In this document: positions 2,942-35,146 of the stretch, piece after piece
Layout: each line of letters starts with the position of its first letter
Position numbering within the stretch: position 1 is the first letter of the stretch
Source of the DNA: Anaerolineaceae bacterium
GTDB lineage: Bacteria > Chloroflexota > Anaerolineae > Anaerolineales > Anaerolineaceae
Assembly: GCA_002702705.1 (NCBI GenBank)
Contig: PABH01000073.1
Span: 126,924-176,090 of the forward strand
Length of the DNA stretch: 49,167 nucleotides
Direction: 5' to 3'
The notes under the pieces: model-generated
Database searches by the model: none
Seen by the model: the letters and a program-made list of their open reading frames with translations, nothing else
What the model was told of the DNA's origin: nothing
Program-made: the position numbers and the translations under genes

Positions 2942-3067
2942 GGTTTACTCCCTATCGGAATTTGGTCTACACCAATTGTAGCCTGATCCACCTGAAATCT
3001 GATTAACTTGTGATCACCAAAAACTTTTGATTTTACTGCGTATCAAAACAACATTCCGCCAGATGAA

Positions 3068-8483: not shown

Positions 8484-8521
8484 AATCGCGAACAATCCTA
8501 TTATCCTCGGAAAATGTGTAG

Positions 8522-8659
8522 GTTGGGCAAGGCCACCAAGGTGCCAGATCGATTTTTTGCAAAATAAGGCTTAATCTCACGGCGATTTGATTACCACATG
8601 CCCAACAAAAATCACAGCAAGATAATTTCTAACGCACACAGAATTACAGAAATGTGTAG
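8522..8659 (+). repeat. Repeat unit 1 of the GTTGGGC tandem array (IS-flanking, left)
   Basis: A 138-bp unit: GTTGGGCAAGG at the start, CAGATCGATT inside, TGCCCAACAAAAA at ~8599-8611, then a ~48-bp spacer ending AATGTGTAG. It is nearly identical to the unit right of the IS (10430-10564); apart from a 3-bp length difference and substitutions near the start, I see one base change. GTTGGGC / GCCCAAC form inverted ends, so the core could fold as a long hairpin. The IS110 element begins exactly at its last two bases (AG, 8658-8659). Confidence 0.85.
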
Positions 8660-8670
8660 AGTGCGGTATA

Positions 8671-8676
8671 AGTCAA
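8671..8676 (-). promoter_or_regulatory. Orphan -35 box in the IS right end (half of a junction promoter)
   Basis: TTGACT on the minus strand lies 11 bp from the core CT. When the right end is joined to the left end through one CT, it is placed 17 bp upstream of the TATAAT at 10423-10418. In the linear chromosome it has no matching -10. Confidence 0.7.
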
Positions 8677-8791
8677 GTAGGAAAAAAAGGCCAAAAAAAG
8701 GAAAAAAAAAGAAGTACTGAAGAGACCAAGAACAATTATTCAAGGCAAGAAATAAAATATAGCTACCATTAAAAAAGAAGCAGAACAAAAA

Positions 8792-10102
8792 TTAGGGATG
8801 AACCTCCTCAGGCTTATAGACCTGATGATGAAAAAGCAACCCCACCACAAGTCCAATAGCCTTGCGGCCAGAAAGAACCACAGCACGTTTATGGTGATGT
8901 TTACTGGCTTCGGCAAATTTTTTATCATAAAAATTTCGATAAGCAGGGATCGATTGGCGCATACGATCAGCAGCTTCAATAAAGTAATAACGGAGATAAG
9001 CATTACCTTTTTTGGACATAGGGTGTTCTTCGGCAGTGAAATTACCAGAAGAGCGCTTAGGCCACCAGAGCCCGGCCTGTTTGGCAATTGCATCTTCGGC
9101 ATCTCGGCAATTACGACGGCGATAGGAATTGAGTTTTTTATCCCACTTAGGGGGATCAAAGAAACGCTGAATATCGCCGATTTCAGCAGCGATGCCACTG
9201 GAAAAAACGGGGCCGATGCCTGGGATGGAGCGGAGCAAATCTACTTCGGGATAATCTTGTGCAACCAAATTGGAGATCTGCTTATCAATGAAGGAGATTT
9301 CGGATTTTATGTTCTTGATGACGGTTGAAAAGGAAGATAGTATAGTGTGAAGAGTCTCCTCGAGGTCAGGTAGAACTGGATAGCTTTTGTGTAAACTCTC
9401 ACGCAAACGGAAGGCGGTCTCAGCAGGTTTTTTTAAAGGGCGGTAACTGAGATCATTTAGCTCTTGAGCCAATTCTCTGAGGGGCAATTCAGCAAACTCC
9501 TCCAGTAATTCTGGATGGGAAAGTAAATATTGGCTGAGTTTACCAAAAGGATCGGAAAAGGCATGGGAGGTGGTGTAACTACTGTAAGCCAAAAACAGAT
9601 GGAGTTGGTAGAAATTTTTCTCTCGCACCATAGAATCGACCAAATGAAAATGGGATCGTGTAAGGAGCCGTAATTTTAGCCAGTGTGGGTCGTAATGCCA
9701 GGAAATAGGCTGGGATAAGGTACGAATACGATCTGCGATGTAAAAAGGATCGCGTTGATCAGTTTTGTGATCAGGAGAAAAACTCTTTTTAAACCAACTA
9801 ACCCAACCAGCATTTAGCAAGGTGAGCTGGGGCTGATAGGGAAGTAGAGCCTCGTCCAAATAGAGCTGAGTAAACAAAGGTAACCAATAATAACTGGTTG
9901 CCTCTATTGCAAATTTCACTCCATCGAACTTTCCGGATTTTAATGTATTCAAAATGAGTTGGTGTGCTTCCTGAAAACCTTGCATCGAATTATCAAGTGA
10001 ACAATGCGCAATAACCGGTTGTCCATTTGGAAGCATCAAGCAATAATCGGCTTTACTCCTGCCAATATCAATACCCACGCTCAATGGGTTGTGCGCATCC
10101 AA
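8792..10102 (-). CDS. IS110-family DEDD transposase (bridge-RNA-guided recombinase)
   Basis: 436 residues from a TTG start at 10102, chosen because a perfect AGGAGG lies 5 nt upstream (10113-10108) and the protein then begins MDAHNPLSVGIDIG like other IS110 transposases. The frame stays open upstream to 10321, but that part covers the structured noncoding end. N-terminal RuvC-like DEDD_Tnp_IS110 domain: D12 in VGIDIG, Glu in AIEATS near 62, and the Asp pair in TDQRDPFYIAD near 112-120. C-terminal Transposase_20 domain: helix-hairpin-helix SIPGIGPVFSSGIAAEIGD, then RSSGNF near 349 with the candidate catalytic Ser, and SKKGNAYLRYY. A ~20-residue insertion (WDKKLNSYRRRNCRDAEDAI) precedes the Ser region. 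Such proteins recombine DNA with their own bridge RNA. Confidence 0.92.
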   Translation of the reverse strand: MDAHNPLSVGIDIGRSKADYCLMLPNGQPVIAHCSLDNSMQGFQEAHQLILNTLKSGKFDGVKFAIEATSYYWLPLFTQLYLDEALLPYQPQLTLLNAGWVSWFKKSFSPDHKTDQRDPFYIADRIRTLSQPISWHYDPHWLKLRLLTRSHFHLVDSMVREKNFYQLHLFLAYSSYTTSHAFSDPFGKLSQYLLSHPELLEEFAELPLRELAQELNDLSYRPLKKPAETAFRLRESLHKSYPVLPDLEETLHTILSSFSTVIKNIKSEISFIDKQISNLVAQDYPEVDLLRSIPGIGPVFSSGIAAEIGDIQRFFDPPKWDKKLNSYRRRNCRDAEDAIAKQAGLWWPKRSSGNFTAEEHPMSKKGNAYLRYYFIEAADRMRQSIPAYRNFYDKKFAEASKHHHKRAVVLSGRKAIGLVVGLLFHHQVYKPEEVHP

Positions 10103-10115
10103 TTTGACCTCCTTT

Positions 10116-10191
10116 CTAATTATCAGTAGAATGTAAGTGAACGGGTATTCCAGGATCACTGGTCCCGAAGCGGAATCCTTGTGATAATTAG
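10116..10191 (-). promoter_or_regulatory. Long-range inverted repeat upstream of the transposase RBS
   Basis: CTAATTATCA (minus 10191-10182) and TGATAATTAG (minus 10125-10116) are perfect 10-bp partners enclosing a second possible hairpin (GGATTCC...GGAAT). The 3' arm ends 2 nt before the AGGAGG of the transposase, so folding could limit ribosome access or, read as RNA, mark the 3' boundary of the bridge RNA. Confidence 0.5.
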
Positions 10192-10199
10192 CCCTCACC

Positions 10200-10411
10200 G
10201 CTGGTTGGTGCGCCTTACCCAGGGTTGCTCGGGTAGACCAACACAGTTTAGGGGAATAGTGCGAGGTAAGCCGTCTAATCGGGACGTGAAGCGGAAGCAA
10301 TCTACTAAAAGACGTGATCATCTCTGATCCGGCAAGGTTGGGAAGCTTTTCCGCTCACCTACTCTTCGGAACCTTTCCGAAGTACTTCTATTATCTTAGA
10401 GTTACCCGTTC
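10200..10411 (-). ncRNA. Predicted IS110 bridge RNA
   Basis: Read on the minus strand, the region upstream of the transposase folds by eye into three elements. (1) A 5' hairpin, CTTCGGA-AAGGT-TCCGAAG (10382-10364). (2) A target-binding loop closed by GTGA.GCGGAA paired with TTCCGC.TCAC (10358-10349 with 10296-10286), with an apical hairpin GATCA-GAGA-TGATC (10329-10316). Its 5' side holds CCCAACCT (10342-10335), equal to the left target plus core, and its 3' side holds GTAG (10305-10302), complementary to core plus right target CTAC. (3) A second loop closed by CTTACC/GGTAAG (10270-10265 with 10219-10214), with CGCACT (10263-10258) equal to the element's right end next to the core. The 3' guide of that donor loop is not clear. 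Both ends are estimates. Confidence 0.75.
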
Positions 10412-10417
10412 TTTGCT

Positions 10418-10423
10418 ATTATA
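10418..10423 (-). promoter_or_regulatory. -10 box in the IS left end
   Basis: TATAAT on the minus strand lies 4 bp inside the core. In the integrated state the flanking repeat gives no -35 at the right spacing. After right-end/left-end joining, TTGACT of the right end lies exactly 17 bp upstream. Confidence 0.7.
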
Positions 10424-10429
10424 TACAAG

Positions 10430-10564
10430 GTTGGGCAAGGACCGTATGCCAGATCGATTTTTTGCAAAATGAGGCTTAATCTCACGGCGATTTGATTACC
10501 ACATGCCCAACAAAAATCACAGCAAGATAATTTCTAACGCACACAGAATTACAGAAATGTGTAG
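10430..10564 (+). repeat. Repeat unit 2 of the GTTGGGC array (IS-flanking, right)
   Basis: A 135-bp unit starting GTTGGGCAAGG directly at the IS border and running through TGCCCAACA to AATGTGTAG, where the next unit starts. It gives the uninterrupted junction used to define the IS target. Confidence 0.85.
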
Positions 10565-10650
10565 GTTGGGCAAGGCTTGTATGCCAGATCGATTTTCTGC
10601 AAAATGGGGTTTAATCTCACGGCTGTTTGATGGCCACATGCCCAACAAAA
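10565..10650 (+). repeat. Repeat unit 3 (truncated) of the GTTGGGC array
   Basis: Starts GTTGGGCAAGG and ends TGCCCAACAAAAA but lacks the ~48-bp spacer. It is more diverged from units 1 and 2 than they are from each other. Unrelated sequence follows (10651-10838), in which nothing else was recognised. Confidence 0.8.
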
Positions 10651-10838
10651 ACCCCTCGGTTGGAAGACTAGCGAAGCCGGGATTTTGGGGAGGATGAAAC
10701 ACTGGGATGGATAAAATATTGGTTAATCAGTTCGCTGCTTGCACGAGGATAAAGCCCGGTTTCTGATCTTCAAAGAGCAAACTTCGGGCTGCATTTTTGT
10801 AAAGGAAGGGGTTTCCTGGCAAGCTGCGGTTATTTTTT

Positions 10839-10927
10839 GTTGGGCACTTGGCTATCTACCTACCGTGAAAATATACCTGACATCACAATAAATCGATCTG
10901 ACACCTTGGTGGCCTTGCCCAACCTAC
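10839..10927 (-). repeat. Inverted copy of the GTTGGGC repeat
   Basis: In reverse orientation it reads GTAGGTTGGGCAAGG, CCACCAAGGTGTCAGATCGA, and ends TGCCCAACAAAAAAT. Its beginning matches unit 1 best, while the middle has diverged. On the plus strand it presents an unoccupied CCCAACCTAC site. Confidence 0.75.
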
Positions 10928-10953
10928 GATTAATTCTATAACGGACACATTAA

Positions 10954-33745: not shown

Positions 33746-34957
33746 TTACAGACCAGCAGCCTTACGAATTTCATCAACCCGATTGGTGCGTTCCCAGCTC
33801 AGGTCAAGGTCGTTGCGTCCAAAATGCCCGTAAGCAGCCACCTGTTGGTAAATTGGGCGGCGCAGATCAAGATCACGGATGATGGCACCCGGTCGAAGAT
33901 CAAAGACGGTGGAAATGATTTCCGCAATCTTCTCATCATCAATGGTGCCTGTTCCAAAGGTTTCTACGTTGACGCTTAACGGATGGGCAACCCCGATCGC
34001 ATAAGCAACTTGAATTTCACAGCGTTCTGCCAAACCAGCGGCAACAATATTTTTTGCTACCCAACGGGCTGCATAGGCTGCGGAACGGTCCACCTTCGTC
34101 GGGTCTTTCCCCGAGAATGCACCGCCGCCATGACGCCCCATACCACCGTATGTATCCACAATGATCTTCCGCCCGGTCACACCGGCGTCGCCCATGGGGC
34201 CACCGATAACAAATCGGCCAGTTGGGTTCACATAAATCTTTAAAGTATCGTCTACCAATTCTTGCGGTAAAACGGGGTTAATCACATGTTCAATGATTGC
34301 TGCCCGGATTTCTGCTTGAGAAATTTCAGGGGCATGTTGGGTGCTGATGAGAACATTATCAATTCGCACAGGTTTCCCATTGCGATATTCAACCGAAACC
34401 TGGCTTTTCCCATCAGGTCGCAGCCACGGTAGGGTGCCATTTTTGCGAACTTCGGTCAGACGTAAGGTTAACTTATGTGCCAGGTAAATCGGCATTGGCA
34501 TAAGGGCATCGGTTTCATTACATGCAAAACCAAACATCATACCCTGATCCCCGGCGCCAATCGCCTCAATTTCTTCTTCCGTCATCTCACCGGATTTTGC
34601 TTCCAGGGCTTTATCAACACCCATCGCAATATCACCGGACTGTTGGGCAATGGCAGCCTGCACAGCGCAAGTATTGCCATCAAAACCTTTATCACTGGCA
34701 TCATAACCAATGTCAAGAACAACCTTACGCACCAATTTATCAAAATCGACAAACCCATTGGTGGTAATTTCACCTAATAACATCACAAAACCGGTTTTTG
34801 TTGCTGTTTCACAAGCAACACGTGAACGAGGATCCTGTTCCAAACAAGCATCCAGAACGGCATCACTAATCTGATCACACATCTTGTCCGGGTGACCTTC
34901 GGTCACGGATTCGGAAGTGAAGAGATATTTGGCTGCGTTCATAAAAGTGGTATTCAT
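33746..34957 (-). CDS. metK: S-adenosylmethionine synthase
   Basis: 403 residues from the ATG at 34957, eight nt after GGAGG. The frame is open 18 codons further, into the terminator arm of the riboswitch, which was rejected as coding. Three SAM-synthase domains with [12 protein letters not shown], the signature [16 protein letters not shown], and [20 protein letters not shown] (P-loop-like). It makes SAM from methionine and ATP in the cytoplasm. Expression is under a SAM-I riboswitch, so it should fall when SAM is plentiful. Confidence 0.97.
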
Positions 34958-34981
34958 AAAATGTGCCTCCGTTAATAAAAA

Positions 34982-35146
34982 TTGCCCCTTCTGTTGGCGA
35001 GGGGCAATCAAGTTGGTGTTTCTAGGAGCTGCCTCTCATCTTCCAGAATTTTTTTCTGCCGGATTTGGCACCTTAAAAAATCTTTCGATTCTTTTGGTTG
35101 CCGAGGTTTCACAGGGCCGGATCCCTCCACCTCTCTGGATAAGAGT
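34982..35146 (-). promoter_or_regulatory. SAM-I (S-box) riboswitch with terminator
   Basis: On the minus strand the aptamer runs from CTCTTATC (35145-35138, P1 5' arm) through CCAGAGAGGTGGAGGGA, GAAACCTCGGCAACC and AAGGTGCCAAATCC to GATGAGAG (35040-35033, P1 3' arm). The terminator stem TTGCCCC/GGGGCAA (35007-34982) with following UUUUU precedes metK. SAM binding stabilises P1 and lets the terminator form, turning metK off. Confidence 0.95.

Follow-up and report, generated by a model that had tools for sequence, protein, structure and literature searches.

A predicted bridge RNA in the left end of an IS110-group insertion sequence from Anaerolineaceae, with guides matching its repeat target and its own ends

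The window analyzed here is a single 49-kb stretch (49,167 nucleotides) of an Anaerolineaceae genome, and all coordinates given below are positions in it. It contains an insertion sequence that is read on the minus strand and is flanked on both sides by units of a repeat. Its main parts are as follows.

8660 to 10429, minus strand: IS110-group element of 1,770 bp, counting one CT core (10429-10428); junctions set against the intact repeat
8659 to 8658, minus strand: second copy of the core, on the right-end side
8658 to 8682, minus strand: right end, with TTGACT (-35 half of the predicted circle-junction promoter), left donor ACCGCACT and core
10418 to 10429, minus strand: left end CTTGTATATAAT, with core, right donor and -10 half of the predicted junction promoter
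8792 to 10102, minus strand: tnp, the recombinase gene, with a TTG start and 436 residues (DEDD domain and Transposase_20 domain)
8518 to 8657, strand not assigned: target repeat unit on one flank of the insertion, from repeat comparison
10430 to 10700, strand not assigned: target repeat units on the opposite flank, from repeat comparison and family copies in the genome

Elsewhere in the window, a SAM riboswitch (35033-35145, minus strand, 95.8 bits) lies upstream of an open reading frame at 33746-35011.

The uninterrupted 22-nt repeat junction AAATGTGTAGGTTGGGCAAGGC is present at 8512-8533 and 10555-10576, while the halves that flank the element read AAATGTGTAG and GTTGGGCAAGG, with AG (CT on the minus strand) at each end. 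The core is therefore CT, where the initial annotation had already placed the insertion point, and target duplication is absent; a core dinucleotide at both junctions with no target duplication is the arrangement of the IS110 group. Split at the core, the target at the element reads GCCCAAC-CT-ACACATTT. By eye, no long subterminal inverted repeats adjoin the ends, and a 17-nt, 82% inverted pair lies further in (8702-8718 with 10381-10397). A single copy of the element was found in its own genome by DNA search (40 of 44 candidates scored) and by protein search, so its choice of target is seen without replication within the genome.

The element has as its target one unit of a tandem repeat that is dispersed through the genome, where a search with the 135-bp unit gave at least 23 matches (40 of 66 candidates scored). 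The sequence CCCAACCTAC occurs 67 times in the genome, many of them in arrays, compared to 41 times for a reversed control pattern. In the window, the tandem array spans 8512-10930 in units of about 135 bp with the ends GTTGGGCA...TGCCCAAC, and arrays are found in several contigs. Locus L002 (1501-1546; G000:C62), beside another copy of the same repeat family elsewhere in the genome, holds 46 nt of a related RNA in decayed form (87%), which may be the remnant of an older insertion.

The recombinase frame is open, with no stops, and AAAGGAGG at 10115-10108 precedes its TTG start; the translation that was searched (P0001) is one codon longer than the 436-residue frame. The protein matches PF01548 (E 2.7e-18) and PF02371 (E 8.3e-14), and thus combines, as IS110-group recombinases do, a DEDD RuvC-like domain with a PF02371 domain that has a conserved serine. 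The D, E, D, D and SG columns, aligned to the catalytic residues of IS621 as numbered in the available text of PMC11208158, are invariant in a six-sequence alignment. IS621 is the best match among solved structures, both by profile and by fold. A profile search gave IS621, ISCro4 and one weak third entry as the only closest solved structures by sequence. With an AlphaFold2 model (mean pLDDT of 73.8) as the Foldseek query against the PDB, the first 11 matches were chains of IS621 or ISCro4, with a best E of 1.4e-11 and TM-scores of only 0.34 to 0.49.

Relatives were collected by protein searches of 301 genomes of relatives, 396 of the class, 400 of the phylum and two sets of 48 and 3 from the order, at thresholds of 1e-60, 1e-90, 1e-80, 1e-60 and 1e-60. 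Matches were present in 5, 4, 1, 7 and 1 genomes, respectively (the window's own genome is counted in the first three), indicating that close members are few. An alignment search of a named genome collection confirmed 225 stretches, of which 79 loci were kept; a single-protein search of genome contigs and an alignment search of viral contigs confirmed no relative. Both ends could be set in 46 elements. This set leaves out duplicates from two sources (L013, L014, L016, L017, L027 and L093), duplicates of the window (L001 and L003), fragments (L002 and L004), L094-L096, and loci lacking both ends by pattern. Seven of the elements, including that of the window, group together in a protein tree of 23 rows with support of 100/100, and we refer to these as the window clade. 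The seven-element tests below include every window-clade element with both ends; the stretches of L009, L019, L070, L072 and L092 do not include a left end. The genome of the window also carries a second, more distant IS110 element (L005; G000:C24), whose left end CTCATATAA lies at a Shine-Dalgarno-like site. Its coding sequence was matched in two pieces, and an insert between its left end and tnp resembles another insertion sequence by eye.

The region between the left end and tnp is predicted to encode a bridge RNA with the following parts.

10139 to 10411, minus strand: predicted bridge RNA of about 273 nt, from the predicted +1 of the circle-junction promoter to the 3' strand of helix P1, both ends being predictions
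10403 to 10411, minus strand: 5' strand of helix P1, GAACGGGUA (own versus swapped, 2/5,040)
10364 to 10382, minus strand: 5' stem-loop, seen in folds
10349 to 10358, minus strand: closing stem of the target-binding loop, 5' strand, paired in the fold with 10296-10286 (swap test weak, 446/5,040)
10335 to 10342, minus strand: left target guide (LTG), CCCAAC plus core CU (8/8 to its own target; 1/5,040 over seven elements)
10316 to 10330, minus strand: apical hairpin of the target-binding loop, seen in folds
10302 to 10305, minus strand: right target guide (RTG), GUAG, complement of core CT plus AC (fixed-position permutation, 2 to 8/5,040)
10286 to 10296, minus strand: closing stem of the target-binding loop, 3' strand, from the fold
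10279 to 10285, minus strand: 5' strand of helix P2, GUCCCGA, closing stem of the donor-binding loop (own versus swapped, 1/5,040)
10258 to 10263, minus strand: left donor guide (LDG), CGCACU, same letters as in the right end before the core (left-donor test, 35/50,000)
10204 to 10242, minus strand: large hairpin within the donor-binding loop, containing CGAG, from the fold
10172 to 10199, minus strand: conserved 3' motif of the donor-binding loop, from alignments A2 and A4
10178 to 10182, minus strand: right donor guide (RDG), ACAAG, complement of left-end CTTGT; tracks the left end across elements
10162 to 10168, minus strand: 3' strand of helix P2, UCGGGAC, from the swap test
10139 to 10147, minus strand: 3' strand of helix P1, UACCCGUUC, from the swap test

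The initial annotation had taken the RNA to be 10411-10200. Folded alone, this stretch was no better than its shuffles (z of -0.92), compared to a z of -2.34 for 10130-10430, and we have corrected the end of the RNA to about 10139. The 5' hairpin (10382-10364) and the GATCA-GAGA-TGATC hairpin of the first proposal are both present. So are its two stem-closed loops, the second of which is closed by P2 and runs on to 10162, beyond the interval first proposed. The extended regions of three window-clade relatives gave z values of -3.65 (L015), -3.56 (L012) and -5.26 (L011), and a helix joining the two ends of the RNA was seen in all four of the elements folded, the window element included.

We assessed the helices with a swap test, in which the 5' and 3' parts of the RNA were exchanged among the seven elements in all 5,040 re-pairings. 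The true pairing was matched by very few re-pairings for P1 and P2, P1 being poor in L010; the version for the target-loop stem was crude, with the weak result listed above. Since P2 encloses both donor guides, we assign it as the closing stem of the donor loop. The pairing of the two RNA ends was also scored over 17 non-redundant elements of 45. Own pairings summed to 552, compared to 320.4 ± 21.8 for re-pairings (0/20,000), and the own partner ranked first in 13 of the 17 elements; in L031 it ranked 8th of 17. In the window element, L006 and L010, this test prefers another helix, between the 3' end and the 5' side of the target-loop stem. The alternative in the window pairs 12 bases (10362-10351 with 10144-10133) and competes with both P1 and the target-loop stem, and a similar one is present in L006. 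Judged from these pairings, the 3' end of the RNA could possibly act as a switch.

RNAalifold on the MAFFT alignment A2 recovered neither P1 nor P2 and instead paired left-end CTTGT with ACAAG in 7/7 elements. A covariance model (R1) of the 3' half of the RNA, without P1 and P2, was searched against 29 sources and matched the window, L018 (which is not in the model; E 1.9e-5) and, marginally, L022 (E 0.18). It gave no match at E ≤ 1 in the remaining 26, which indicates that the model is too narrow for distant relatives; in the window's own genome it found the window copy only (150 of 229 candidates scored). No Rfam family reached its gathering score in the element region, so the identification as a bridge RNA rests on the guides, the context and the homology of the recombinase. 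The helices that are kept with different sequences, the z values of -2.3 to -5.3 and the match to L018 together bear out the expectation that relatives share a conserved structure, and they predict, as in the IS110 group, a structured noncoding RNA that lies in the left end and precedes tnp.

The first loop had been proposed to carry CCCAACCT (10342-10335) and GTAG (10305-10302), and both are present and match the element's own target. In the window, CCCAACCT occurs five times: four times at repeat ends, one of them the element junction, and once in the guide. When the letters of the 273-nt RNA were shuffled 20,000 times, it arose in 83 of the shuffles; with a 74-nt segment surrounding the target loop, it arose in 28 of 20,000, and CCCAACCT with GTAG after it in 2 of 20,000. 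In the seven window-clade elements, the target loop was located by conserved neighboring letters, with anchors that were picked after the loops had been viewed. The LTG matches its own target at 41 of 42 bases, with a mean of 3.48 of 6 for foreign targets, and the true pairing is the only one of 5,040 that reaches 41. In L007 the match is 5/6 and the core is not matched; in both L006 and L012, one base of the core is mismatched. For the RTG at a fixed position, the core plus three bases agree at 30 of 35 positions (2/5,040), and longer versions gave 8, 7 and 5 of 5,040. At a free position, the result was 19/5,040 with the core and weak without it (289/5,040). Contiguous agreement of the RTG ranges from 3 bases (L006) to 10 bases (L012). 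The target guides of the seven elements thus covary with their targets, as in the IS110 group; a shared loop at unrelated targets would have spoken against the initial annotation, and the opposite is seen, since LTG and RTG change with the target. The formal LTG permutation covers the window clade. In 18 relatives outside it, the best 8-letter left-guide match anywhere in the RNA is 6 to 8 of 8, with several, including L018, no better than 6/8, a level that has little meaning in a stretch of this length.

The donor guides follow the ends of the element. The second loop carries CGCACT (10263-10258), identical to the 6 bp of the right end beside the core, as the initial annotation had noticed. 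Over 11 types of left donor, LDGs scored 66 with their own donors, compared to a mean of 59.56 on re-pairing, with L006, which represents the type of the window clade, matching its own donor at 5/7, no better than foreign ones. For the other donor guide, the initial annotation had offered CGAG at about 10225 as a weak candidate. This CGAG sits within a hairpin, and a different segment, ACAAG, follows the left end, so CGAG is ruled out; the RDG lies at 10182-10178, outside the interval first proposed. The conserved 3' motif GGGCUNAUU...CAAGG holds the complement of the left end, which in the window is ACAAG for CTTGT. Left-end CTTG goes with CAAG in the RNA in 7/7 window-clade elements, and CTCG goes with CGAG in all 38 readable elements of the other 39 (L028 is unreadable because of Ns); both counts include copies, with near-copies among the 38. 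In L012, the RDG was read at the aligned place (CAAG); an automatic table had scored an upstream stretch as CGAG, giving 6 and 1. The agreement across the tree may reflect one ancestral paired change. Donor guides that covary with donor ends are a further property shared with the IS110 group.

When the right and left ends are joined through one core, the window element reads TTGACT-N17-TATAAT, with 11 of 12 consensus letters. The 17-bp spacer is present in 46/46 elements, which have 9 to 12 of the 12 consensus letters; shuffles of the letters gave a mean of 7.17 and a maximum of 10, reached in 1.1% of 2,300. This predicted promoter has the letters expected of an IS110-group junction, and by its spacing a start 6 to 7 bases past the -10 would fall at 10411-10410, on the first bases of P1.

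Of 32 relatives that fall outside the window clade, counting copies, 24 lie at antisense Shine-Dalgarno sequences, with a start codon 7 to 16 nt from the junction that opens at least 40 codons, compared to 18.3% of 7,684 control positions. CTCCT is present in the loop region of L020, L022, L024, L025, L031, L039, L042 and L065 and is not present in that of L026 or L018. Within the window clade, L010 likewise lies at an antisense Shine-Dalgarno site. L011 has, by eye, an inverted-repeat end, CAATCCTAAGGATCCGG...CCGGATCCT (1081-1154), followed past its right end by TAGGATTG (2995-3010); judged from these letters, its target likewise seems to be the end of a palindromic repeat. Two Alicyclobacillus elements, L024 and L026, have near-identical recombinases (end branches of 0.018 and 0.032), the loops TTCTCCTCCT and CCTCCCCCCT, and the targets CTTCCTC-CT and TTCCCCC-CT, and by eye they look like a case of natural retargeting. 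New target specificity, this suggests, can arise through small changes in one loop. IS900 reportedly inserts at translation starts, and we therefore do not claim Shine-Dalgarno targeting as new. A literature search by title and start of abstract returned no link between IS110 elements and ribosome-binding or Shine-Dalgarno targets, and the available text of PMC7823733 is silent on the point.

These data argue strongly, at the level of sequence, that the window element is an IS110-group insertion sequence encoding a bridge RNA in its left end, whose four guides match the repeat target and the element's own ends. From the same features we infer transcription, RNA ends, binding and recombination as follows. 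The recombinase would excise the element as a circle, and where its right end meets its left end a sigma-70 type promoter would arise, from which the RNA and the downstream tnp are transcribed. A 5' stem-loop, then a target-binding loop and then a donor-binding loop would make up the folded RNA, with P1 holding its two ends together. With the guides CCCAACCU and GUAG, the target loop would read CCCAAC-CT-AC at the end of the dispersed tandem repeat; with CGCACU and ACAAG, the donor loop would read the element's own junction, CGCACT-CT-TGT. The recombinase would then join target and donor at the CT core.

We next consider other explanations for the locus. The element could be dead though formerly functional, with the RNA as a fossil. 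This would fit the single copy found in the genome, the TTG start and the decayed L002 fragment beside the same repeat family elsewhere, and we nevertheless consider it unlikely, given that the frame is open, the catalytic columns are kept, and both ends and all four guides are present and matching. The description of the element as a new and apparently intact member with a readable guide thus agrees with its sequence. The left-end region could instead be a structured leader that regulates translation of tnp, the guide matches being coincidental. In its favor, tnp follows immediately after the region, with 23 nt between the 3' strand of P1 and AAAGGAGG; however, a leader would not vary with the insertion site, and here both target guides track the target and the donor guides track the ends. 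A leader as the sole role of the region is refuted on this basis, making the coincidence very improbable, whereas a double role as guide RNA and tnp leader is possible. An IS1111-type element, which shares the DEDD family and would have its guide RNA on the opposite side of the gene, can be practically dismissed, since tnp is preceded by both the long noncoding end and the RNA, 132 bases separate the tnp stop from the right-end core, and the bottom-strand-pairing segment comes first, as reported for IS110-type RNAs in the available text of PMC11187229.

An IS110-group element with a bridge RNA in its left end is thus the reading that we carry forward. To this, the present analysis adds where the element ends exactly, which segment is the donor 3' guide, how far the RNA extends, how the guides track across relatives, and a helix that closes the ends of the RNA. 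The 46-element set, with seven window-clade elements whose target guides are aligned, allows guide-target pairing to be checked by eye. The helix suggests a bridge RNA that is longer and closed at its ends, in a recombinase subgroup whose closest solved structures by sequence are limited to IS621 and ISCro4, both of them shorter, plus a weak third entry. A broader picture is conceivable but doubtful: a large IS110 subgroup in Chloroflexota and Bacillota might have a distinct end-closed bridge RNA of at least about 270 nt, in which P1 ties the 5' end, at the transcription start in the window element, to the 3' end past the donor loop, with an open/closed switch through pairing of the P1 3' strand with the 5' strand of the target-loop stem. 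Some of its elements might have switched between Shine-Dalgarno sequences and repeat ends through natural changes of the guide.

The architecture itself has been described. The available texts of PMC11208160, PMC11208158 and PMC11187229 report for IS110 elements a bridge RNA in the left end, a junction promoter, two loops with four guides, a CT core and repeat targets, and PMC11187229 also reports natural retargeting (ISMch6). The consensus published for 103 orthologues consists of one stem-loop at the 5' end and two others that contain internal loops. An end-to-end helix is not mentioned in the available text on IS110 RNAs in these three papers, in which other structures are drawn in a figure. 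IS621 of Escherichia coli resembles the window element, according to the available text of PMC11208160 and PMC11208158, in its recombinase (DEDD and C-terminal serine domain), CT core, RNA upstream of tnp, junction promoter, target loop followed by donor loop, LTG, RTG, LDG and RDG, and insertion at repeat elements (REP in IS621). Its left end CTTGTAT and the GCAAGG near the 3' end of its RNA region are like CTTGT and ACAAG in the window element. It differs in that its recombinase has 326 residues rather than 436, with a partial sequence match only, and in that its RNA is 177 nt in the available text, compared to a predicted length of about 273 nt here, where the LTG is 6 bases plus the core. 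Only 12 nt separate GCAAG from the ATG in IS621, too few for a counterpart of the 3' strand of P1.

The subgroup of ISEc21 and IS110 proper likewise has a noncoding RNA region upstream of the gene, and the 436 residues of the window recombinase fit the 395 to 455 amino acids given for transposases of the subgroup that includes IS110 in the available text of PMC11187229. The seekRNAs of ISEc21 and IS110 proper are given there as 70 to 100 nt with a longer, less abundant form, which differs from the length of about 273 nt predicted here. The relatives from Carboxydocella, Alicyclobacillus, Lysinibacillus and gut Bacillota (among L020-L087) share with the window clade the logic of the ends, the junction promoter, the place of the donor 3' guide and the end-to-end helix. 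Unlike the window element, which lies in a repeat, most of them lie at antisense Shine-Dalgarno sequences, and their left end is CTCG with a CGAG guide. Membership of the window element in the recently discovered kind of RNA-guided DNA recombinase is well supported, and the kind itself is already known. Because the bridge-RNA architecture is already described and IS621 has no room for P1, we report the window element as a new member of that kind, in which the end-closing helix may be a variant feature of its subgroup.
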